A stretch of DNA of 33,931 nt from Oscillospiraceae bacterium (GTDB taxonomy: Bacteria; Bacillota; Clostridia; Oscillospirales; Ruminococcaceae), in contig JAKSPK010000027.1 in NCBI GenBank assembly GCA_024404875.1, positions 1-33,931 of the forward strand. Direction: 5' to 3'. A program made the position numbers and the translations under genes. The notes beneath the pieces were generated by a model. It worked only from the letters and a program-made list of their open reading frames with translations, had not been told where the DNA came from and ran no database searches. The first letter of the stretch is position 1. Every line of letters begins with the position of its first letter. This document shows positions 9,384-33,931 of the stretch, in pieces.

Positions 9384-12300
9384 ATGAAAACAAAACGATT
9401 CTGTGCGGCGCTCGGCGCGGCGGCAGTGCTCGCTCTGACCGTGCGCGAGCTGCCGCCTGTCACGGCAGCTGCCGCAAAGACAGTCTCGCTGATGGACTTT
9501 GCAGCGGCCATGAAAAAGCTGACCGCGCAGGATGCCGAACGGGATATCTTCGGCGAACTGATCTTTGATAAGGCTGCCGGAACACTCTCTGCAGACGGCG
9601 GCGATCCGACCGATTCCGCCGGCGGACTGACCGTCAGCAGCGGTGAGCTGTATCTCGATACGGCGCAGTCCGGCAGGCAGAGCGGCATCTCCGCGCAGTC
9701 TGTTGTTGAGGCAGTACGCTTTGCAGATGCGGCGGAGGAAAACGGCTATACTGTGCGGGAGTGCGGTGATTCGCTGCGCATCACGAATGAATTTCAGACG
9801 GCGCGTCTCATCGTCAAGGCGGCGGGCGTGATCGATCAGCACGGTGCAAAGGATGTCGCCGAGGGCTACCGCGATCTGCATATCCTGCAATACGATACAC
9901 CCGCCGCGGCCTATGCTGCATATCTGCTTTATTCTGCAGATGCGGCAGTTCAATATGTCCAGCCGTCACACCGAATCACAGTCACGGCGGACGAATCCGG
10001 CGATACGCACGCTGCATCCTATAACACATGGGGTGCGGAGATGATGGGGATCCCGACATTTACAAAAACCTATCTGAATGCCGAAGTGCTGCCGGAGGTC
10101 AAAGTTGCGGTCATCGACACGGGCATTGATCCGCGTCCGGAGATCTTTGACGGGCGGCTGCTCGACTGCGGCTTCAACTTCTCCGGCTCCGGCAATGATA
10201 CACCGGATGACGATCTCTATCACGGCACACACGTTGCCGGAACGATCTGCGAGCTGACACCGCGCAATGTCAAATTACTGCCGGTCAAATCCTTTGACAG
10301 CAGCGGCAGCACGAGCGATGAACAGATCTATGCAGGCATCATGTATGCGCTGGAACAGGGCGCGGATATCGTCAACATGAGCTTTGGCGGACTCGGTGTC
10401 AGCCCGCTGGAGGTGGAGGCAATGGAAGTCGCCGATGAAGCAGGAATGATCTGCATCGCATCGGCGGGCAACAACGCAGACGATGCCGGCTATTATTATC
10501 CGGGCAGCATCGAAAGCTGCATCACGGTCGGCGCCGTCGATATCAATATGGCGCATCCCGGTTTTTCCAATACCGGAAAATCACTGGATGTCGTCGCACC
10601 GGGCGTCGATATTCTCAGCTACACGCTTGGAGAAAATACGCTGGAAAAGAAAAACGGAACGAGCATGGCCACGCCGCATGTCGCGGCCTGCTGTGCGCTG
10701 CTCCGTTCCTATGATAAGGAGATCACGCCGCGCCGTGCAGAGGCGCTCCTTCGGCTCAATGCAGTGGATATCGGCGAACCGGGCTTCGATGACGCATTCG
10801 GCTGGGGCTTCGCCTGTATGTCGGATTTCCGATGGGATGACGGCATCTGTCCCGCACCGGAATATTCGCTGAAATCCGGTAATTACGGCAAGGCAAAAAC
10901 AGTTGAGCTGACGGCGGATTCTCCGGATATGCAGATTTATTACACAACAGACGGCTCCGTGCCGACCAAACTGACCGGCACGCTCTATACTGAGCCGCTG
11001 ACGATCACAGAAACCACACATCTGCTTGCAGTCTGTGTTCAGGACGATTGGCTCAACAGCGTTCCGGCAGAGGCAGTCTATATGATCAGCGGAAAGGATG
11101 TTCCGGATGCGCTGAAGATCGCAGACGGCGTTGTGACTGCATACAGCGGTGTGCTGGAGGAGCTGACCGTTCCCGACACATATGACGGTCAGCCGGTCAC
11201 TGCGATCGGTGCTGCGGCCTTTGCGGATAACCATTTCGTCAAAGAGATCACGCTGCCGGATACGATCACAAAGATCGGGGACGCAGCATTTTCCAGCTGC
11301 GTTTCACTGAAACAGGTTACGGCAGCCGGCGCTGAGGAGATCGGTGCAAAAGCTTTTGCGAACGACACAGCACTGGCCGAAGTCTCCCTGGGCGACACAT
11401 GGACCGTGCTCGGACCGGATGCATTTTCCGGCTGCACATCCATCAAAACACTGTCTGCCCCCGGCATCCGGCAGATCCCGGAGAACACATTCCTAGACTG
11501 TACATCGCTTTCCAGTGTATCCTTTCCGGATGCGTCCGTCATCAATGCGAAGGCCTTCGCCGGATGCAGCAGCCTGACGGATATCCGGATCCCGTTTGAG
11601 AAGGTTTCGGAGATCGGCGCATTCGCATTTGCCGGCTGTCAGCAATGGCAGGATGTTTTGCAGCTGCCCGCGCTGAAATCGCTCAGCGAAGGCGCATTTC
11701 AGAATGCACGAAGCCTGCGCGGCGCAGAGCTTTCTGAAAGCATTACGGCACTGCCGGATTCGGCATTTGAGGGCTGCGAAAGCCTTCGCATCCTGAAGCT
11801 GCCGGGCGTCACTTCAATCGGTGCATATGCGCTGGCAGCGAATAACGGAACCGACCGCACAGTGCTTACGCTGGACTGTTCAAAAATCACAGAAGTCGGC
11901 GAATATGCATTCCGGGGCTTCACGCTCGGCAGTGCCTATGCGCGTGCGGAATTCTCCGCACTCACGGAGATCTCCGAGCATTCATTCAGTGGTGTCAGAG
12001 TCGGCAGTATCGCACTTCCGTATGTCAAAGCCGTGCCGGACAACGCCTTTGCGGAATGCAGTCTCCTATGTGTGGAGCTGCCGAATGCTGAAAGGATCGG
12101 AAACGGCGCACTGACCGGCTGCCGGGCGGCCTTCCTGACGAAGCAGCTCCGTTTGATCGCAGCAGATGCACTGATGGAAAATATGTGGATCATCACCTAT
12201 GACACGCTTCCGATCCCGAAGAATGCACCCGCATATCAGACCTGCGCAGAGCCGTTCGTCATGCATACCGCTCCCGGCAATCAGGAGGTCAGTGCACATA

Positions 12301-15300
12301 CCAATCATGTACTGGATGTTCTGGCCTGCGGAAAAGATCTGACTTATCAGTGGTATGTGCTTGACGGAGAAACAGAACACGCGCTTGACGGCGAGACCGC
12401 ATCACAGTTCACACCGGATACGGCGGAAACGGGCGTGCGCAATTACCGTTGCCGGATGACTGACAGCACCGGCATGACGGAGCAGGTCGATTTCCGGATC
12501 ACAGTCAGCAGCGGCGATTTCTTCAAAGAAGCCGCAACCGATACGCTTTACACTGAGGACGGCAGTACATCTGCGTATTATACTTTCACGCCGTCCGAAA
12601 GCGGAATCTATGCACTGCGAACCTACGGGGCGGCTGGGACAATCTGCCTGATGACCGATGCCGCAGGCAATGCAGCCGCATTTTCGGCGATCGAAAACGG
12701 CGAGACCGTTCTCCGCGCCGAACTAACCGCCGGGACACCGTATTACTTTGAAATAAGCGGCCTCTGGAAAGACAGCTACTCCGTGATCCTCAGCGAAAGC
12801 AGAGCAAGATATAATCTTGCAGATTGCAGTTTGCGGATCACAGCAACGGACAAAGTTCCCTACGATGCGGCATATCATCCGACAACCTCGGTGACCGCTC
12901 CGGACGGCACAGCACTGAACGAAAATACCGATTACATCATCCGCTATGAAGCACACGATCAGTATCAGTATATCCATGTCTACGGCATCGGCGATTATTA
13001 CGGCAGTATCGCAGAAACATTCACCGTCTATCAGCAGATCCGGGAGGATACGGTCATTCCGGCCGCACCGGAAAGCCGCTACGATCCCGCAGTCTATGTC
13101 TTCATTCCGAAGGTCAGTGCGGTTTATAACTTCTACGCATCTCCAGGCGAAGGCTATGCAGAAGACTATATGCAGCGAAACCGCGTTGGCTCCTTCCGGA
13201 ACGCACAATACGCCGGATTCCAGACAAATTGCATGATCGCCAATACCCCGGACGGCAGTGAGACTGTCTACGCCCGCGCAGATTATTCCGAAATCACAGG
13301 CACATTCTTCCGCATCTCCGTGATGCTTCGCGCCGGCCAGACCTATTATCTGCTCTGCGGAGCGAATGCGCCTGCAAAGTATACCTTCACCGTCACACAG
13401 AACGATTATGACATCCGTCAGGCGACCGTCTCCGGCATGTTCAATGCGGAATATGATCCCGATGAACAGTTCACGCCCAAAGTCAATTTGACGCTGAACG
13501 GCGAAAAGCTGATCCCCGGAAAGGATTTCCAGATCATCGCTCGGCAGCACGATGTTCCGGGAAAATCGGAAATCACGATCATCGGCTGCGGTCTCTACTA
13601 CGGACAAATCATCCGCACGGCGGAACTGATCTACAGCTATCCGGAACTGCCGGATTCCTATATCACAGAACGCGAATCGATCAGCGTGACCTGCGCAGAC
13701 AGCCGTCTGACAATCCTGCGGTTCAAGGTGACAGAGGGTGCGACGCCGAACGCTGTGCTTCGCTACCGCATCGTCAATGAGCGGCGCTCCGGCGGATATA
13801 TCCTCACGCAGCTTTTCCGGTATCTGCCGGAGGCGAAGATGTGTTCGCGCATCTCACCGATGGCCGGCGAGACCAATGACTATCAGCTGACGAACGGCGA
13901 ATACTGCGTGGTCTGCTGCCGTGAATTTGCTGACGCTGCATCCGCTGCGAATATCACAATTCTACAACCCTATTCACTGGCAGAGGCCGCGGTCGAGATC
14001 ACGGATATGCCCTATACCGGCTCAGAGGTTCCATGTCCCGTAACCGTAACCGCATCAGACGGAACCTTGCTGGAGGAAGGCAAAGATTTCAAAGTCACCT
14101 ATAAGGACAGCAATGTCTTGTTCGGCGAATGTGCATTTTCGCTGCGGCCGACGAACACAAGCTTCGGCATCCAGGACGGCACATTCAACATTTATGTTTC
14201 AATCCCAGAGGATGTGCCGGAGCTGGAGACAGGCTCCCATTCAGTCAAAGTCACACTTGATGACAGGCTGGCGTGCTTCCGCATCACACCTGATACCGAC
14301 ATGAGCTATCTGCTCGGCACAACCGATGTACCGAATACCGTTCTGCGCGTATTCTCTGAGGATCTTGAAATGCTGGAGCAGGATTACGGCACCGGTACGA
14401 ACGCCGTCAAATTCACAGTTCCCGCTGGTGAGACGCGTTATCTCATGGTAAAATTCAACGGCGAGGAGCGCGAAGGCACAATCAATTTCCGGCTCGAAAC
14501 AGCACTGCATCTGCTTGCCGACTGTGAGGTCATCACAACACCGCAAACATGGACAGGCGGGCAGATCACGCCCCCGGTACAGTTCATAGACGGCGACTAT
14601 ATACTGACCGAAGGCAAGGACTATGTGCTGCGCTACACCGCAGATGATGTCAATGTCGGAACGGCAACCGCGAATTATTACGGCATCGGCGATTATTATG
14701 GTGTCTGTGATGTGCAGTATCAGATCGTCGTGCCGAATCTTGAGACACTGCAAAGCGAAGACTGCTTCCCGATCCTGCTGAATGAAACCTACTATGCAGA
14801 TGAGATTGACACGCCCTATGTGCTGTTCAGCTATCAGGGTGCCTGCGCTGCAGAGCTGAATCTGCTGGTCTTCGATGCAAGATGCCGGCTGAGCGTGCAG
14901 GTCTATGACAGCCAGGGCGAACTGGTCTCAACGATGTTCATGAAATCCAGAGAATCGCTTCCGCTGAGCTATCCGGAGAACGGCGAAACCTACTATTTCC
15001 TCTTTGCACCAACTGATGTTTCCGGAACAAACCGTGCCTTCAATCTGATCCTTCAGGACAAGTCCAATCCGGGTATGGAGCGTCTGACCGATGAAGAGGG
15101 CGGTGTTGTATACCGAATCAGTCAGGAAAGCGGCTATGCTGAGGCCTATGGACTGGCCAAGGATTTCAAGGGCGATTCACAGCTCATCCTCAAGCCGGAG
15201 ATCGACGGACTGCCCGTACAGCTCATTCCGGAGGCACTGTTCGCGATCCTGCCGGAGGGTACAGTCGTAATCGGCTATCCCGGCTGTCCTGCGGCAGACT

Positions 15301-15551
15301 ATGCCGATCAATACGGATTCATCTATCAGGAGTCAGCTGCCAGTGCTGTCACCGGTGACATCAACGGCGACGGACGATGCTCTGAAGCAGATATCACGAC
15401 GCTGCTCGCATTCATGACAGAATATAACCTGCTGGATCCGGAGCGGATCGTGACGCCCAGCGCCGATCTCAACGGCGACGGTATCCTCGACCTGCTTGAT
15501 ATTCGTATATTGCAGAGCCTGCTGAATGATGTCAGAAAAGAAGAAACCTGA
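9384..15551 (+). CDS. Giant secreted subtilisin-like protease with LRR, beta repeats and dockerin
   Basis: A 2055-aa exported S8 serine protease. A signal peptide occupies about residues 1-30, then a pro-region to about 220. The catalytic triad is intact: D245 (VIDTGID), H280 (HGTHVAG) and S427 (GTSMATPH), with oxyanion Asn363 (AGNN). Then follow a CHB_HEX_C-like module (about 496-565, YYTTDGSVPT), BspA-type LRR_5 repeats (about 573-950), an Ig-like domain (about 956-1043), and an alternating array of PPC-like domains and GIGDYYG-type beta repeats (about 1049-1890). A short LRR-like cap precedes a complete type-I-like dockerin (about 1988-2052) with calcium loops starting DINGDG and DLNGDG. 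The dockerin suggests docking onto a cohesin-bearing scaffold or the cell surface. Substrate unknown; cell-wall protein or dietary protein turnover is plausible. AAGGGG precedes the ATG, 22 nt after the helicase stop. Confidence 0.93.
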   Translation: MKTKRFCAALGAAAVLALTVRELPPVTAAAAKTVSLMDFAAAMKKLTAQDAERDIFGELIFDKAAGTLSADGGDPTDSAGGLTVSSGELYLDTAQSGRQSGISAQSVVEAVRFADAAEENGYTVRECGDSLRITNEFQTARLIVKAAGVIDQHGAKDVAEGYRDLHILQYDTPAAAYAAYLLYSADAAVQYVQPSHRITVTADESGDTHAASYNTWGAEMMGIPTFTKTYLNAEVLPEVKVAVIDTGIDPRPEIFDGRLLDCGFNFSGSGNDTPDDDLYHGTHVAGTICELTPRNVKLLPVKSFDSSGSTSDEQIYAGIMYALEQGADIVNMSFGGLGVSPLEVEAMEVADEAGMICIASAGNNADDAGYYYPGSIESCITVGAVDINMAHPGFSNTGKSLDVVAPGVDILSYTLGENTLEKKNGTSMATPHVAACCALLRSYDKEITPRRAEALLRLNAVDIGEPGFDDAFGWGFACMSDFRWDDGICPAPEYSLKSGNYGKAKTVELTADSPDMQIYYTTDGSVPTKLTGTLYTEPLTITETTHLLAVCVQDDWLNSVPAEAVYMISGKDVPDALKIADGVVTAYSGVLEELTVPDTYDGQPVTAIGAAAFADNHFVKEITLPDTITKIGDAAFSSCVSLKQVTAAGAEEIGAKAFANDTALAEVSLGDTWTVLGPDAFSGCTSIKTLSAPGIRQIPENTFLDCTSLSSVSFPDASVINAKAFAGCSSLTDIRIPFEKVSEIGAFAFAGCQQWQDVLQLPALKSLSEGAFQNARSLRGAELSESITALPDSAFEGCESLRILKLPGVTSIGAYALAANNGTDRTVLTLDCSKITEVGEYAFRGFTLGSAYARAEFSALTEISEHSFSGVRVGSIALPYVKAVPDNAFAECSLLCVELPNAERIGNGALTGCRAAFLTKQLRLIAADALMENMWIITYDTLPIPKNAPAYQTCAEPFVMHTAPGNQEVSAHTNHVLDVLACGKDLTYQWYVLDGETEHALDGETASQFTPDTAETGVRNYRCRMTDSTGMTEQVDFRITVSSGDFFKEAATDTLYTEDGSTSAYYTFTPSESGIYALRTYGAAGTICLMTDAAGNAAAFSAIENGETVLRAELTAGTPYYFEISGLWKDSYSVILSESRARYNLADCSLRITATDKVPYDAAYHPTTSVTAPDGTALNENTDYIIRYEAHDQYQYIHVYGIGDYYGSIAETFTVYQQIREDTVIPAAPESRYDPAVYVFIPKVSAVYNFYASPGEGYAEDYMQRNRVGSFRNAQYAGFQTNCMIANTPDGSETVYARADYSEITGTFFRISVMLRAGQTYYLLCGANAPAKYTFTVTQNDYDIRQATVSGMFNAEYDPDEQFTPKVNLTLNGEKLIPGKDFQIIARQHDVPGKSEITIIGCGLYYGQIIRTAELIYSYPELPDSYITERESISVTCADSRLTILRFKVTEGATPNAVLRYRIVNERRSGGYILTQLFRYLPEAKMCSRISPMAGETNDYQLTNGEYCVVCCREFADAASAANITILQPYSLAEAAVEITDMPYTGSEVPCPVTVTASDGTLLEEGKDFKVTYKDSNVLFGECAFSLRPTNTSFGIQDGTFNIYVSIPEDVPELETGSHSVKVTLDDRLACFRITPDTDMSYLLGTTDVPNTVLRVFSEDLEMLEQDYGTGTNAVKFTVPAGETRYLMVKFNGEEREGTINFRLETALHLLADCEVITTPQTWTGGQITPPVQFIDGDYILTEGKDYVLRYTADDVNVGTATANYYGIGDYYGVCDVQYQIVVPNLETLQSEDCFPILLNETYYADEIDTPYVLFSYQGACAAELNLLVFDARCRLSVQVYDSQGELVSTMFMKSRESLPLSYPENGETYYFLFAPTDVSGTNRAFNLILQDKSNPGMERLTDEEGGVVYRISQESGYAEAYGLAKDFKGDSQLILKPEIDGLPVQLIPEALFAILPEGTVVIGYPGCPAADYADQYGFIYQESAASAVTGDINGDGRCSEADITTLLAFMTEYNLLDPERIVTPSADLNGDGILDLLDIRILQSLLNDVRKEET

Positions 15552-19935: not shown

Positions 19936-24204
<4,269 letters not shown>

Positions 24205-24214
24205 TTATCTTATA

Positions 24215-27067
24215 TCAGTTGTCTGATTCATTCAGCAGCGCGCGCTTCATAAGTGCGAGATCAGATGCACTGATCATATCATCTGCTGTAAAATCACCGG
24301 CCTCCCAGTCTGCAGGAATGGTACCATCATGCAGAAGCCATCTCTGCAGTGTCACCACATCCAGCAAATCAAATGTTCCGTCAGCGGTAACATCTCCCAT
24401 AAGGAATGAATCTTCCTCATCAGGCGTATTCACACTGAACCAGTTCAGGTTGTACAGATATCCGTTTCCGCCCTTAAATACAAGGTAAACATCCTGCATT
24501 CCGGTTGTTCTGGTAATGGAGGCTGTCTGAGTCGCCCATTTCTGCCATCCGCCGGTTTCTTCCACATTCAGCTTACCGATTTGTTTTCCATCCGGTGAAC
24601 CCAGATGAATTTCCAGAGCAGAGCCGCTACTGTTCGCACCAATGCGGAAATCCATTGACTCCGCCCCGCTTCCAAAATCTACATTTTTGAATCCGATATA
24701 GTCACCATTTTCGATGTAAGCCACATCAGAACCGCCTTCACTGCAGTTTTCTGTCTGAATACCGGACTGTGCTGTAAAGCTTTCTGCTTCAATGACAGAA
24801 CCGGATCCTACAAGCCGAAGGATATGGGATGACTTACTGATAATCTTGCCATTATTGTCAACGGAATAGATACGGTATTCGCCTTCCTTCTTTGGTGTCC
24901 TGATGGAAACAGCTGCACCGGATGCCTTGGTCATATTGTCCCCTGCGGCAAATTCTGTTGTGCCGTCAGGAGCAATCCAGATCGCGGTACCGGTACTGCG
25001 AATGGGAAGCGTACTTTTGGTTGTTGTCTGACAGCTTGCAGGGAAAGCGTAATCTGCCGTGGAAATCAGCCAGTCAGGAACCAGGTTTCTGTTCTTGTCA
25101 GTTACGCCGGAGTTCAGACATACATTATACTGTGCCAAAGGCCATACATTATCCGAAACAACAATCGGCTGATCAATACGGCTGTTAGGAGGATTAACGC
25201 CCATTTTGCATACAGTTGCATAGGTACGCAGGATGGTCAGGTCATGCTTTTGCCCATAGTCTTCACAGTTGATCGTATAGGTAACATTCGGGCTGATTTC
25301 AAGAACATTATCGTTTTCTTCAACATACGCTGTTCCTTCATCGTTATGCAGACCATAAGTCGGCTGATAAGGTGCTGCTGCCGGAATACCCTGTACATAG
25401 TTTTCATTGATAATCGTGCCCGGCATCTGTCCGATGGTATAGATACCGCCGCTGTCGTGAAGTCTGTTCAGGGAATTCATTACACGGTTATTGCAAATCA
25501 TATTATCCCGGCAGGTTGTGCTGTCTTTGAAATTGCACCAGCCCCATCCAAGATGAATGCCATTATATGCGGTCTTGACAATCGTATTATTCAGAATCTT
25601 CAGTGAATCCACATAATAGGCTGTGATGCCTGCGCATCCGCCAAAGCCGTGAACGACGCTCAGGTCATAAAGAAAGTTGCCGGAAATCTCGTTATTTTTG
25701 CAGATGCCTTCAACTCCCTTAGGGAATTTCTCATGATTATCCCATGAGGCATCCCCGATGTACACATGCTGTGGATGACCGACTGTGATACCGCTGGAGG
25801 GAATGTCTGTAATGTAGTTGCCGGTAACACTGGAATTGATGACATCATTTGTCATGGAAAGTCCGTCGGAGCCTGTGTGCTTGATTACATTTCCTGTGAA
25901 TATGATAGAATCACTGTTGGTGATGTGAACAGCACCCGGAAGTGTATCGGCCATCTCATACTTTTTGCTGTGCCAGTTTGAATCAGCATAAGCGGTATAT
26001 GTCTGCGCAGCCTGGCAGGTCGCTTTTCCATGGGATCCATCCACATCAGTCAGCTGATACTCCGTATTCGCAAAAGTGATTCCGGAAAAGCCGATATTTT
26101 CCACTCGTTCATCCGTTGACTTTCCTTCAATCACGATCAGCTGATCGGCAATAGGCGCTTCCACATCCGCTGTCTGCATATCCTCCCCTTCTCTTGGGTA
26201 ATAATACAGAAGGTGTTCCGTTTTGTCAAAATAGAACTCACCCGGAGAATCTACAAAAGACAGAGAGTTGTAAATAGTATGGGTGCCGCCGGTGGAAAAA
26301 CCTGCACCCCATCCAGGCGTCTGGGCGATTGCACCATATGGCTGCTGCATCAGCAGAATCAGGGAACCGTTCTCGGTTTTGACATCTCTTGTACATACGA
26401 TGTTCTCATTCCATGTCGTTCCATTAATGATTTCAAGATCGTCGAAATTGGAGGTAATAGGAGGGACATCTGACAAATTATACGCTACGCCGTCACTTGC
26501 CTTACCAGAATCCCACGCCCATGATGCCTGTCCTGCACTGATGCGGTATTCACCATAACCGCCCTTTGCCTGAACAGTAACACTGCCCATATTTGCGCGT
26601 TTATCATTTACATACAGGTTTCGCATTTTCACATCTCTGTCCAAAGGTGCCGTATACAGCCGGTCATTCAACTTTGTCCAGCCGGTAACTCTTTGCGCTC
26701 CATTGATTACCGGTTTTTCGTCAGCATAAGCCTTATACCAGATTTGAAAACCATTGCTTGCAGAATCCCGTGTGTCAAACACAACAGGCTCTGTGATACG
26801 ATAATCACCGCCGCGTAGGTATACAATGATATCACCATTCATATTGGAATTCACTTTGCGGACAGCATCTCTCGCTGCTGTCAGTGTCCGGAACGGACTG
26901 CTTTCTGTTCCCTGACCGCTGTCATTGCCATCCGGCGAAACAAAAAATACAGCCTGAACATCAGTTTCCTCAGCCTGCACAGAAATCGTGTCTGCCGGCA
27001 GTGACAAAAGGAATGTGGTCATGCCAAGAACAGTCGCTATCCCCCTAGTAAATCTTCTTTGATTCAT
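24215..27067 (-). CDS. Secreted parallel beta-helix protein (GH141-like?) with CBM6 and dockerin
   Basis: A 950-aa exported polysaccharide-acting protein. The signal peptide (about 1-32) is followed by FFVSPDGNDSGQGT and PFRTLTAARDAVR, the usual opening of right-handed beta-helix carbohydrate enzymes. Many short strand-turn repeats (GNVIKHTG, GNYITDIPSSG, ILNNTIVKT) run to about residue 620. The opening with a NGAQRVTGW segment recalls GH141, which contains fucosidase and xylanase activities; this assignment is tentative and the active site was not identified. A CBM6-like domain (about 760-890, IEAESFTAQSG and YIENGDYIGF) and a dockerin (about 890-950, loops GDVTADGTFD and DFTADDMISA) follow. 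The ATG at 27067 was chosen because GAGGGGG precedes it and a signal peptide starts there, although the frame is open upstream. First gene of the island operon. Confidence 0.85.
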   Translation of the reverse strand: MNQRRFTRGIATVLGMTTFLLSLPADTISVQAEETDVQAVFFVSPDGNDSGQGTESSPFRTLTAARDAVRKVNSNMNGDIIVYLRGGDYRITEPVVFDTRDSASNGFQIWYKAYADEKPVINGAQRVTGWTKLNDRLYTAPLDRDVKMRNLYVNDKRANMGSVTVQAKGGYGEYRISAGQASWAWDSGKASDGVAYNLSDVPPITSNFDDLEIINGTTWNENIVCTRDVKTENGSLILLMQQPYGAIAQTPGWGAGFSTGGTHTIYNSLSFVDSPGEFYFDKTEHLLYYYPREGEDMQTADVEAPIADQLIVIEGKSTDERVENIGFSGITFANTEYQLTDVDGSHGKATCQAAQTYTAYADSNWHSKKYEMADTLPGAVHITNSDSIIFTGNVIKHTGSDGLSMTNDVINSSVTGNYITDIPSSGITVGHPQHVYIGDASWDNHEKFPKGVEGICKNNEISGNFLYDLSVVHGFGGCAGITAYYVDSLKILNNTIVKTAYNGIHLGWGWCNFKDSTTCRDNMICNNRVMNSLNRLHDSGGIYTIGQMPGTIINENYVQGIPAAAPYQPTYGLHNDEGTAYVEENDNVLEISPNVTYTINCEDYGQKHDLTILRTYATVCKMGVNPPNSRIDQPIVVSDNVWPLAQYNVCLNSGVTDKNRNLVPDWLISTADYAFPASCQTTTKSTLPIRSTGTAIWIAPDGTTEFAAGDNMTKASGAAVSIRTPKKEGEYRIYSVDNNGKIISKSSHILRLVGSGSVIEAESFTAQSGIQTENCSEGGSDVAYIENGDYIGFKNVDFGSGAESMDFRIGANSSGSALEIHLGSPDGKQIGKLNVEETGGWQKWATQTASITRTTGMQDVYLVFKGGNGYLYNLNWFSVNTPDEEDSFLMGDVTADGTFDLLDVVTLQRWLLHDGTIPADWEAGDFTADDMISASDLALMKRALLNESDN

Positions 27068-27090
27068 TTTTATCCCCCTCTTTATATTTG

Positions 27091-27107
27091 AAAATATTTC
27101 ATATTTT
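27091..27107. repeat. Palindrome in the 5' leader of the island operon
   Basis: AAAATAT-TTC-ATATTTT, perfect 7-bp arms with a 3-nt centre, located just downstream of the proposed -10 and upstream of the beta-helix start codon. It may be a second operator site; in such A/T-rich DNA it could also be chance. Confidence 0.35.
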
Positions 27108-27108
27108 A

Positions 27109-27137
27109 ATGTTAACATAAAATGTATTATTTCACAA
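27109..27137 (-). promoter_or_regulatory. Likely promoter of the beta-helix/GH2 operon
   Basis: On the minus strand there is TTGTGA (plus 27132-27137), a 17-bp spacer and TAACAT (plus 27109-27114), with TGT before the -10. The -35 element lies inside the 13-bp inverted repeat at 27116-27148, so binding there should block RNA polymerase. Confidence 0.6.
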
Positions 27138-27148
27138 TACATTTTATG
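27116..27148. promoter_or_regulatory. Perfect 13-bp inverted repeat, putative operator
   Basis: CATAAAATGTATT (27116-27128) and AATACATTTTATG (27136-27148) are exact reverse complements separated by 7 nt. The site overlaps the -35 region of the island operon promoter, as expected for a repressor dimer site. No regulator gene is intact beside it; the DNA to the right (27149-27360) may hold only a remnant. Confidence 0.65.
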
Positions 27149-27368
27149 CAGATTAGGTGGATAAAATGAATAAATGCGGCCGCCGCGCCGTTTTGCGAAG
27201 AATACCAGTCTCATTCGCGCCTATGGGCAACCTGGAATTTATTATGCTCCCGGAGAAGTATAGAGTCCGGATTCAGCACTGCCGCCGGATCCAAAGCGGG
27301 ATGATTACTGAAAATTGCGCATATTTTGAACATAAAATTATACTGCATACCAAAATATGAAAATGCAC

Positions 27369-27397
27369 TTGACAAATCTTTCACAATGTGCTATAAT
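27369..27397 (+). promoter_or_regulatory. Consensus sigmaA promoter of amt
   Basis: TTGACA (27369-27374), an exact 17-bp spacer and TATAAT (27392-27397), with TGC before the -10. Both hexamers are perfect. Such a strong promoter, followed within about 50 nt by a terminator, indicates control after initiation. The preceding 27149-27368 has no gene I recognise. Confidence 0.93.
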
Positions 27398-27407
27398 ACA
27401 GACAGAA

Positions 27408-27450
27408 CAGCAAAGGGGCTGCGGAGAACATAGAACTCCGCAGCTTTTTT
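27408..27450 (+). terminator. Leader terminator 1 of amt with overlapping hexaloop hairpin
   Basis: The terminator stem is GCTGCGGAG (27418-27426) with CTCCGCAGC (27436-27444), then TTTTTT. A competing hairpin, CAGC-AAAGGG-GCTG (27408-27421), uses the first four bases of the terminator arm. Its 6-nt loop has A at position 1 and G at position 4. The two structures are mutually exclusive, as in ANTAR-controlled leaders. Confidence 0.85.
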
Positions 27451-27454
27451 GTTC

Positions 27455-27498
27455 TTCCAAAGCGCTTTGAAATCCATAAAAAACGCACAATGGGGTGC
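27455..27498 (+). promoter_or_regulatory. Candidate ANTAR antiterminator element (dual hexaloop hairpins)
   Basis: Hairpin P1 is TTCCAA-AGCGCT-TTGAAA (27455-27472, one mismatch in the stem). Hairpin P2 is GCAC-AATGGG-GTGC (27485-27498). Both have 6-nt loops with A1 and G4, the known recognition feature of ANTAR-domain antiterminators such as EutV and NasR. P2 shares 27492-27498 with the 5' arm of terminator 2, so protein-stabilised P2 would prevent termination and allow amt expression. The structure is read from sequence; the binding protein is inferred and not encoded here. Confidence 0.7.
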
Positions 27499-27541
27499 AT
27501 GATGCTTGATTTTCGGCTCATGTGCCCCCTTTTCGTTTTTT
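27492..27541 (+). terminator. Leader terminator 2 of amt
   Basis: The stem is GGGGTGCATGA (27492-27502) with TCATGTGCCCC (27518-27528), two G-T pairs and a 15-nt loop, then TTTTCGTTTTTT. It lies 22 nt before the amt ATG and overlaps the P2 hairpin. Confidence 0.85.
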
Positions 27542-27562: not shown

Positions 27563-29293
27563 ATGGCGAATGACATTTTACAGGCGGTGGACAGCGAGGT
27601 CTTTTCGATTTGGTTTCTGATCGGTGCCGCGCTCGTATTCTTCATGCAGGCTGGCTTTGCAATGGTCGAGACCGGCTTTACTCGTGCAAAGAATGCCGCC
27701 AATATTATCATGAAGAATCTCATGGATTTCTGTATCGGCACGCCGATGTTCGTTCTGATCGGCTTCGGACTGTTTATGGGAGAAGATCTGGTCGGACTGA
27801 TCGGCAAGCCCGGCTTCGATGTATTCACTGCATATGAAAACTTCGACTGGTCGAATTTCGTGTTCAATCTGGTATTCTGCGCGACCACTGCGACGATCGT
27901 TTCCGGCGCAATGGCAGAGCGCTGCAAGTTCCTCTCGTACTGCATTTATTCCGGCATCATCAGCGGACTGGTCTATCCGATTGAAGCGCACTGGATCTGG
28001 GGCGGCGGCTGGCTCGCACAGCTCGGCTTCCACGATTTCGCAGGCTCCTGCGCGATCCACATGGTCGGCGGCATTTCTGCGCTGATCGGCGCTAAGATCC
28101 TCGGCCCGCGCATCGGCAAATTCACGAAAAAATCCGACGGCAGCATTCAGCCGAACGCGATCCTCGGCCATAACCTGACGCTTGGTGCTCTCGGCTGCTT
28201 CATTCTCTGGTTCGGATGGTATGGCTTCAACGGCGCTGCCTGCACAAGCACCGGGCAGCTCGCATCGGTATTCGTTACCACGACAGTTGCTCCTGCAATT
28301 GCAACTGTCACCTGCATGATCTTCACATGGGTGAAGTACGGCAAGCCTGATGTTTCGATGTGTCTGAACGCTTCCCTCGCCGGTCTGGTCGGCATCACCG
28401 CCGGCTGCGATGTCATGGATGTTGCCGGTGCATCGATTGTCGGTATTGTCTCCGGTCTGCTCGTTTGCTTCGGCGTTTGGCTGCTCGATTATGTGCTGCA
28501 CATCGACGATCCGGTCGGCGCAGTCGCCGTACACATGATGAACGGCATCTGGGGCACTGTTGCGGTCGGTCTGTTCGCAACGACCTCTGTCCCCGGCAAC
28601 GATACACTCAGCGGACTGTTCTACGGCGGCGGTGTGAATCTGCTGGGCACGCAGCTGCTCGGCTTTGTCTCGGTCGCTGCATGGACGGTGGTCATGATGA
28701 CAATCGTATTCCTCGTCATCAAGCATACATTTGGTCTTCGCGCCTCGAAGGAAGAGGAAATCCTCGGCATGGATGCCGCAGAGCATGGTCTGGTCAGCTC
28801 CTACGCAGATTTTGCACCTGCAATGAGTGAAGCTGCGACGACTAAGTATTCTGAGCAGGATGAACATATCCCGACCACGCCGGCACCGGCTGTCAGTGTG
28901 ACAAACGAGCAAGATGCATCGCATCCGAAGATGACAAAAGTCTCTGTCGTATTCAATCAGGAAAAGCTGCACCATTTCATTCACGCAATGGAGCGTATCG
29001 GAATTACCGGCGTAACAGTTACGAATGTCATGGGCTGCGGCATCCAGAAAACCAGCAGCTATTACCGCGGCGCAAAAATGAGCGCAACGCTGCATCCGAA
29101 AATCAAGGCAGAAATTGTTGTCTGCAAGGTTCCGGTTGAGGACGTCATCAAAACAGCACGCGAGGTGCTGTATACCGGTCAGGTCGGCGATGGAAAGATC
29201 TTCACCTATTCGGTGGAACAGGTCGTCAAGGTGCGTACCGGCTCTGTTGATTACGCCGCGCTCCAGAACGAAGAGCTGCCGGAAACGAATTAA
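27563..29293 (+). CDS. amt: Ammonium transporter fused to a C-terminal PII (GlnB) domain
   Basis: A 576-aa inner-membrane ammonium channel with a built-in nitrogen sensor. Residues about 10-395 are an Amt domain with roughly 11 membrane helices. The twin pore histidines are H166 (SCAIHMVGG) and H324 (VAVHMMNG), and the family segment HWIWGGGWL is present. After a loose 50-residue linker, residues about 457-576 form a PII domain with a T-loop containing QKTSSYYRG (Y501 aligns with the GlnB Tyr51 position) and the ATP-binding B-loop TGQVGDGKIF (about 538-547). In most bacteria GlnK is a separate protein that plugs Amt when nitrogen is ample; here the plug is tethered. The T-loop appears one residue shorter than in GlnB. 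RBS AAGGAG precedes the ATG. The gene stands alone with an elaborate leader (27408-27541) and a strong terminator. Confidence 0.96.
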   Translation: MANDILQAVDSEVFSIWFLIGAALVFFMQAGFAMVETGFTRAKNAANIIMKNLMDFCIGTPMFVLIGFGLFMGEDLVGLIGKPGFDVFTAYENFDWSNFVFNLVFCATTATIVSGAMAERCKFLSYCIYSGIISGLVYPIEAHWIWGGGWLAQLGFHDFAGSCAIHMVGGISALIGAKILGPRIGKFTKKSDGSIQPNAILGHNLTLGALGCFILWFGWYGFNGAACTSTGQLASVFVTTTVAPAIATVTCMIFTWVKYGKPDVSMCLNASLAGLVGITAGCDVMDVAGASIVGIVSGLLVCFGVWLLDYVLHIDDPVGAVAVHMMNGIWGTVAVGLFATTSVPGNDTLSGLFYGGGVNLLGTQLLGFVSVAAWTVVMMTIVFLVIKHTFGLRASKEEEILGMDAAEHGLVSSYADFAPAMSEAATTKYSEQDEHIPTTPAPAVSVTNEQDASHPKMTKVSVVFNQEKLHHFIHAMERIGITGVTVTNVMGCGIQKTSSYYRGAKMSATLHPKIKAEIVVCKVPVEDVIKTAREVLYTGQVGDGKIFTYSVEQVVKVRTGSVDYAALQNEELPETN

Positions 29294-33861: not shown

Positions 33862-33931
33862 TGCGCCGGAAGGGATTCGAACCCCCGACCTACTGGTTCG
33901 TAGCCAGTTACTCTATCCAGCTGAGCTACCG
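33862..33931 (-). tRNA. tRNA-Arg(ACG), 5' end cut by window edge
   Basis: The minus strand reads CGG-TAGCTCAGCTGG (D arm), an anticodon arm ACTGG-CTACGAA-CCAGT with anticodon ACG (plus 33899-33901), the T arm GGGGG-TTCGAAT-CCCTT and the acceptor 3' arm CCGGCGC with discriminator A at 33862. The 3' CCA is not encoded. The first four bases of the acceptor 5' arm lie outside the window. Confidence 0.95.

Follow-up and report, generated by a model that had tools for sequence, protein, structure and literature searches.

The published target RNAs of ANTAR regulators are described as dual hairpins, P1 and P2 (PMC3369931). According to the same source, eutP is no longer induced when P1 is removed, and induction falls drastically if the linker between the hairpins is 3 or 14 nt long. 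The linkers of eut RNAs are 5–12 nt long, and a linker of 2–25 nt was allowed in a search of actinobacteria (PMC8164766). Both the 2012 search (PMC3369931) and the 2021 actinobacterial search (PMC8164766) demanded two stem-loops, and the targets predicted in 2012 include ammonium transporters and glutamate and glutamine synthase enzymes (PMC3369931; PMC3369936). In the structure of EutV with RNA, the ANTAR dimer makes contact with no more than one hexaloop at once (PMC8934654), thus a single hexaloop is the minimal binding site. The authors of the structure retain P1 in the role of a recruitment hairpin, since there is little time before polymerase moves on, and P1 spacing is reported to matter in vitro for EutV (PMC8934654) and P1 to be needed in vivo (PMC3369931). 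They allow lone hexaloops where the timing of polymerase is irrelevant, citing EutX and stem-loops of M. tuberculosis that lie off the dual motif (PMC8934654). Among Clostridia, NitR of Clostridium saccharobutylicum is an ANTAR regulator, with GS/GOGAT genes reportedly induced by antitermination under nitrogen limitation (PMC6316151), and an ANTAR gene of C. thermocellum is reported in a co-regulated ammonia-assimilation cluster (PMC4676874).

The DNA analyzed here (the window) is a stretch of 33,931 nt from an Oscillospiraceae bacterium, one contig (G000:C35) of a draft genome that is 87% complete. The closest named relatives of its amt gene are in Ruminococcus MAGs (90% and 86% identity, among the best 80 of 586 relatives). 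Profile matches place an Amt domain (PF00909) at residues 16–410 and a C-terminal P-II (GlnK-like) domain (PF00543) at residues 457–560 of one protein. Near-full-length matches to this Amt-P-II protein at an identity of at least 85% are found in 18 of the 30 genus genomes, its own included, and C. thermocellum has also been described as having an AmtB-PII protein (PMC4676874). Elsewhere in the window, very large predicted secreted proteins are encoded at 9384–15551, 19936–24180 and 24215–27214, each with a dockerin-like C-terminal module as judged by eye; they include a subtilisin-like protein with repeats and a beta-galactosidase-like protein, and one adjoins amt. A tRNA gene on the minus strand (33862–33931) is cut by the contig end. 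The amt leader and gene comprise the following features.

27369..27397, plus strand: sigma-70-type promoter TTGACA-17-TATAAT, 12/12, with TG before the -10
27408..27421, plus strand: hairpin A, CAGC[AAAGGG]GCTG, candidate single ANTAR-type site for terminator 1
27418..27450, plus strand: intrinsic terminator 1, a 9-bp GC-rich stem with a 9-nt loop and a T run
27458..27469, plus strand: hairpin B, CAA[AGCGCT]TTG, possible but weakly supported P1 (recruitment hairpin) of the second site
27485..27498, plus strand: hairpin C, GCAC[AATGGG]GTGC, P2-type hexaloop of the second site
27492..27541, plus strand: intrinsic terminator 2, its 5' arm common with hairpin C
27563..29293, plus strand: amt, ammonium transporter fused to a P-II domain

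A preliminary description of this DNA had placed a perfect promoter before amt, followed by two terminators that are each overlapped by a hexaloop hairpin with A at loop position 1 and G at position 4 (A1/G4), and all of these elements are present. The -35 box (27369–27374) and the -10 box (27392–27397) are separated by a 17-nt spacer, and shuffles of the promoter's 500-nt region contain a mean of 1.0 promoter scoring at least 9/12. Both hexamers are largely kept in 25 aligned leaders, and the amt transcript is expected to start near 27403–27405. Hairpin A begins about 10 nt downstream of the -10 box and, given the predicted start, would sit at the 5' end of the transcript; the 10 nt between the -10 box and its stem base hold no P1 hexaloop. 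The 5' arm of terminator 1 (fold z -7.3) overlaps the 3' arm of hairpin A, and hairpin A in isolation folds at -4.7 kcal/mol. The whole leader folds at -55 kcal/mol (z -5.5), with the terminators as the stable folds. The hexaloop hairpins are weaker alternatives in these predictions and would form only with assistance, as an antiterminator should. A scan of the whole window for terminators overlapped by a hexaloop of the form C[A(A/G)NG(G/A)N]G returned three, namely terminator 1, terminator 2 and a weak one (-9.9 kcal/mol) located within the coding region of amt. A generic terminator scanner with a loop limit of 8 nt listed neither of the leader terminators, the loop of terminator 1 being 9 nt.

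Hairpin C overlaps terminator 2 (fold z -3.2) in the same manner. A linker of 15 nt separates it from hairpin B, which the preliminary description had taken as a third A1/G4 hexaloop. The loop of hairpin B reads AGCGCN in all 24 genus leaders (19 distinct), the sixth base being T, G or A. Its stem is less convincing: it has only 3 bp and is closed by A-U, the predicted fold favors a 4-bp stem with a GCGC tetraloop, and stem pairing is slightly above partner shuffles (P = 0.025), a weak covariation. When the fragment 27455–27512, in which terminator 2 is incomplete, is folded, hairpins B and C are not the lowest-energy structures and the fold is no better than shuffles (z 0.5). A reading of hairpin B as a palindromic DNA site was weakened because 5 of the 19 distinct leaders lose the palindrome and retain AGCGCN. 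Hairpin B is at most a plausible P1 for terminator 2.

The leader resembles the RNAs of EutV/eutP, NasR/nasF and AmiR/amiE in its A1/G4 hexaloops, in the placement of a P2-type hairpin on the 5' arm of a terminator, and in the presence of an ANTAR protein in the genome. In contrast to those RNAs, terminator 1 and the glnN and glt sites described below lack P1, the hairpin is at the predicted 5' end of the transcript, and the loops have a C-G closing pair and are mostly AANGGN. Terminator 1 is outside the dual-hexaloop definition of an ANTAR target, yet it plausibly acts like an ANTAR switch.

The conservation of the hexaloops was examined in an alignment of 25 leaders, 24 from the genus (two of them duplicates of others) and one from a relative. 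Every one of the 25 has A1 and G4 at each of the two sites. The -35 box, the -10 box, AACAGCAA-G--GCTGC and GCACAA-GGGGTGC are near-invariant, while the terminator loops and spacers drift. Since the 5' stem of hairpin A and its loop positions 1–3 are located outside the 9-bp terminator stem, their conservation is unexplained by the terminator stem alone.

A wider set consists of 103 amt leaders from many Clostridia. Only the best 80 of 586 amt relatives were kept, thus these are the leaders nearest to the amt studied here; 7 of 110 loci were left out because the amt start is missing, and the set contains near-duplicates (L033/L007, L034/L015). Among hairpins overlapping the 5' arm of a terminator in these leaders, 101 are hexaloops, and loops of 4, 5, 7 and 8 nt number 20, 12, 8 and 57, some of the octaloops being the same hairpins counted with one pair open. 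Although the 101 hexaloops were chosen regardless of loop sequence, A1 is found in 89, A2 in 93, G4 in 89 and G5 in 84 of them. The loop is constant, and the stems co-vary. At promoter-anchored sites selected with no stem requirement, total stem pairing exceeds that of all 1000 partner shuffles, and the same holds for leaders outside the genus. An alignment of 77 sites contains 128 cells changed on both sides, a count that is not relied on because the sites were chosen for pairing, which makes it circular. Under a stricter test, the hexaloop site is present in 42 and absent in 36 of the 78 leaders outside the genus set, which include two divergent amt copies from genus genomes (L026 and L028). 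One genus genome (G024) has an ANTAR gene and a divergent amt (54% identity) without a hexaloop site.

In 78 amt loci, an A1/G4 hexaloop is present on 53 of 135 leader terminators and on 50 of the 1512 other terminators of these loci, the terminators here being defined by a faster filter than in the 103-leader census. Of the 50 non-leader cases, 31 combine a strong terminator with a hexaloop of the complete C[A(A/G)NG(G/A)N]G form. A downstream ORF is found for 26 of these 31, and all are glutamine or nitrogen genes according to translations read by eye (9 glnN, 8 glutamate synthase, 5 glnA, 2 CTP synthase, 1 PurF-like and 1 class-II amidotransferase). At six loci (L035, L038, L039, L040, L074 and L081), a divergent glutamate synthase gene is head to head with amt across a shared intergenic region and carries its own hexaloop-terminator on the minus strand, about 250–570 nt upstream of amt.

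A covariance model of the hexaloop and T run (R1) was built from 77 sites and run over the whole genome. The hairpin was chosen as the model structure because the terminator stems shift by about three columns between rows, and a model with the terminator as structure was dropped on the same ground. The site set was cut from 98 to 77 by dropping 9 rows (8 loci), 10 rows longer than 60 nt and 2 awkward rows. The training set included the genome's own amt sites and the glt- and glnN-linked sites of other genomes, and excluded its own glt and glnN sites. Four matches have E < 0.1 (3.7e-5 to 0.047), all on nitrogen genes: hairpin A of amt terminator 1 (36.5 bits, the best match genome-wide, at a training site), a glt site at C38:43466-43527 (27.3 bits), hairpin C of amt terminator 2 (27.3 bits, also a training site) and glnN (23.5 bits). 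The next match has 17.4 bits and E 1.4, with 150 of 337 candidates scored. As R1 was trained on amt-, glt-, glnN- and glnA-linked sites, the recovery of those genes with it is partly circular. The pattern CAGCAANGGNGCTG had four matches in the genome, namely amt terminator 1, glnN and two in coding sequence; the latter two, ribosomal protein L4-like and GroEL-like by translations read by eye, were rejected.

A separate promoter lies immediately before the glt site, and downstream of the site are genes for a class-II amidotransferase, glutamate synthase, a pyridine-nucleotide oxidoreductase, a GXGXG domain, CTP synthase, a PurF-like protein, GlnA and the ANTAR protein. If this cluster, in which one gap measures about 450 bp, is one transcript, the regulator would control itself. 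The region as a whole (G000:C38:30064-43527; L002, L174) is a co-directional cluster of mostly glutamine-making and glutamine-using enzymes, its members comprising glutamate synthase parts, CTP synthase, a PurF-like protein, GlnA, the ANTAR protein, GlnN and the carbamoyl-phosphate synthase small chain.

An ANTAR-domain protein was looked for in the genome, and exactly one match was found, in the glutamine synthetase cluster; the same search gave no ANTAR match in 14 control genomes.

G000:C38:33524-34126: ANTAR gene, overlapping the end of glnA and followed by glnN

The ANTAR domain scores 48.5 bits, the receiver match is under its cut-off, and in sequence comparisons the protein matches Rv1626, EutV and AmiR. 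Residues were compared in columns read from printed alignments, with EutV numbers taken from PMC8934654, which are offset by two in the deposited chain. At the column of the phosphate-accepting Asp54 of EutV the protein has Asn, and the 21 genus proteins have 20 Asn, one Gln and no Asp, which makes the domain a pseudo-receiver like that of AmiR. The loop-plugging Met172 is kept, Lys143 and Lys147 are replaced by Arg, and Tyr164, which stacks on G4, is replaced by His as in AmiR; Arg142, important for binding in EutV, is Leu, which counts against the proposed RNA binding. AmiR (PDB 1qo0) likewise combines a pseudo-receiver (PMC8934654) with an ANTAR domain and has His at the G4-stacking position. 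Clostridial NitR and, for the pseudo-receiver, AmiR are closer comparisons than EutV and NasR, which the preliminary description had named. AmiR is controlled by AmiC, whereas the neighbor genes of the regulator here are glnA and glnN. The tie of the regulator gene to glutamine synthetase and glutamate synthase genes is shared with NitR; unlike for NitR, candidate target RNAs are defined here, amt included with two sites, and the regulator gene is between glnA and glnN. By these sequence features, the regulator is best described as a NitR-like pseudo-receiver/ANTAR protein.

The gene order is conserved in the genus. All 21 genus loci have glnA adjacent to the ANTAR gene, and glnN is present at 19–20 of them, 19 being the safer count as L114 is a cross-match inside glnA; among the 30 highest-scoring ANTAR loci at class level, glnA is adjacent in 15. 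One genus contig (G007:C141) carries two ANTAR genes about 5 kb apart (L113, L132), and for the L113 gene the residue in the receiver Asp column is Gln, and a glnA-like neighbor and a hexaloop site of its own are present. Both amt and ANTAR are found in 20 of the 30 genus genomes, amt alone in five and neither in another five; no genome has ANTAR alone. The five amt-bearing genomes (of 25) in which ANTAR was not matched (G001, G014, G019, G020 and G027; two at least 90% complete) do carry R1 matches. An R1 match at E ≤ 0.2 is found in 27 of the 30.

The association extends across the class. In 246 genomes, for each of which 24 candidates were scored under stricter filters, R1 (E ≤ 0.01) was found in 97 and ANTAR over its cut-off in 129: 89 genomes have both, 8 R1 only, 40 ANTAR only and 109 neither (P = 1.8e-25, Fisher's exact test, which ignores phylogeny). 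The R1-positive genomes cover 42 family labels. The genomes are drafts, thus sites and ANTAR genes may be missed. Importantly for the use of R1, its co-occurrence with ANTAR genes is not circular. At least 36 R1 sites, in 34 genomes, are within 12 kb of an ANTAR gene, a floor rather than a rate for the 51 sites counted, which were picked mainly on ANTAR-bearing contigs. The gene next to the 28 best-scoring class-wide loci (28 of 29 parsed, with L257 at a contig end left out) is glnN in 15, glnA in 5 and amt in 4, and is unassigned in 4; five of the glnN cases align only from about 1.1–1.2 kb downstream, and one of the amt cases is 34% identical.

We also examined where the hexaloop is placed relative to the promoter. 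Among 127 collected sites, 76 have a promoter scoring at least 9/12 within 60 nt, compared with 9, 12, 14, 10 and 19 in five shuffled controls. The -10 box ends 5–19 nt before the stem (mode 10–11) in 74 of the 127, thus transcription is expected to begin a few bases ahead of the hairpin, and none of these 74 promoter-proximal sites has a P1 of at least 3 bp between the -10 box and the hexaloop. The 28 class-wide loci, which were found with a promoter-free model, have a promoter within 20 nt in 22 cases and a P1 in none. In amt leaders outside the genus set, 29 of 42 first sites are promoter-proximal, and a P1 candidate of at least 4 bp within 30 nt is found at two of the 42 (L037, L105). The genome's own glnN and glt sites are likewise promoter-proximal single hexaloops without P1. 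Among the relatives examined, this layout with a single hexaloop is the prevalent one. In contrast to the model for EutV in PMC8934654, the single hexaloops here sit on terminators. The 5'-terminal single-hexaloop layout was not found in the full-text literature, in which "single hexaloop" together with ANTAR matches only PMC8934654, subscription papers being mostly outside the scope of the search; among the papers listed for ANTAR and Ruminococcus, the titles are unrelated. The layout looks like a new, testable variant of ANTAR control, a kind that is itself known.

Taken together, the amt leader very probably works as an attenuator of transcription in two stages, under the control of the only ANTAR protein of the genome, which is NitR-like. 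The two-stage antitermination of amt had been proposed in the preliminary description, and it is well supported by the kept loop, the one ANTAR gene in the glutamine synthetase cluster, the sites on other operons and the co-occurrence of the genes; the part that fits less well is site 1, which lacks P1. Also counting against this reading are the 8 of 97 R1-positive genomes without ANTAR and the 40 of 129 ANTAR genomes without R1. The attenuator might work as follows. By default, when nitrogen is plentiful, each terminator would fold as it is transcribed and the message would stop. When nitrogen is short, as perhaps signaled by glutamine or ammonium, the ANTAR protein would become active, grip the hexaloop in the first ~20 nt of RNA and hold the 5' arm of terminator 1, so that polymerase passes; the same step would be repeated at hairpin C for terminator 2. 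Two terminators in series would give a tighter off state. Control by this protein would also extend to glnN and to the glutamate-synthase/pyrG/purF/glnA/ANTAR cluster, which probably makes its own gene a target. Since the receiver has no phosphate-accepting Asp, a bound partner protein seems likelier than a kinase. Glutamine synthetase would be the obvious candidate partner, as its gene overlaps that of the regulator and it is reported to bind TnrA, a nitrogen regulator, in Bacillus (PMC6316151).

Alternatively, only the second site, with hairpin B as P1 and hairpin C as P2, could be an ANTAR switch, terminator 1 and its hairpin being an unregulated promoter-proximal attenuator that lowers expression. 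Hairpins B and C together do resemble the published motif, the AGCGCN loop of hairpin B is invariant in form, and the 15-nt linker is within the 2–25 nt range for actinobacterial ANTAR RNAs (PMC8164766); however, a 14-nt linker at eutP led to a drastic loss of induction (PMC3369931), and a P1 of at least 4 bp is found at none of nine second sites outside the genus set. Moreover, few parts of the leader are as well conserved as the loop and 5' stem of hairpin A, which lie beyond the terminator stem, and the genome's remaining sites (glnN and glt) also consist of one promoter-proximal hexaloop, like terminator 1. We therefore consider this explanation unlikely. A still smaller chance is given to the possibility that the hexaloops are bound by another RNA-binding protein, or belong to a glutamine or ammonium riboswitch, with the ANTAR association being indirect. 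Some genomes with sites and no detected ANTAR gene would agree with it, but the A1/G4 loop is the published ANTAR signature (PMC3369931), the co-occurrence with ANTAR is strong class-wide, and the conserved core is one short hairpin; Rfam searches gave no family at gathering score in the leader, with no credible family in the window search and four matches far below gathering scores in a permissive leader search. That the terminators are constitutive, serving insulation or noise control, with the hexaloops as by-products of terminator sequence, is highly improbable. The terminator arms do force G-rich sequence near the 3' half of the loop, but loop positions 1–3 and the 5' stem are conserved outside the terminator stem, A1/G4 hexaloops are concentrated on leader terminators (53/135 versus 50/1512), and the four genome matches at E < 0.1 are all on nitrogen genes.

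Beyond the two-stage attenuator at amt, we lean, with less confidence, toward a more general reading. A nitrogen regulon of Clostridia, with amt, glnN, glnA and glutamate synthase as members and, in some genomes, pyrG or purF, would be switched by antitermination at a lone ANTAR hexaloop, which would be the first structure to leave polymerase and would act without a recruitment hairpin. The 5' position would replace P1; for example, the hairpin could form during promoter escape, which would give the ANTAR dimer time to bind. The pseudo-receiver regulator would sense nitrogen via a partner, perhaps glutamine synthetase.

The 2022 paper on the EutV-RNA structure calls for bioinformatics on single hexaloops and holds that antitermination needs P1 (PMC8934654). 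The sites described here provide a large, natural and conserved set of single-hexaloop attenuators on clear terminators, tied to ANTAR genes by gene order and co-occurrence, with which the requirement for P1 becomes directly testable. They also allow ANTAR regulons that would be overlooked with a two-hairpin model to be searched for in a simple way, and they suggest how many Clostridia may control ammonium assimilation.
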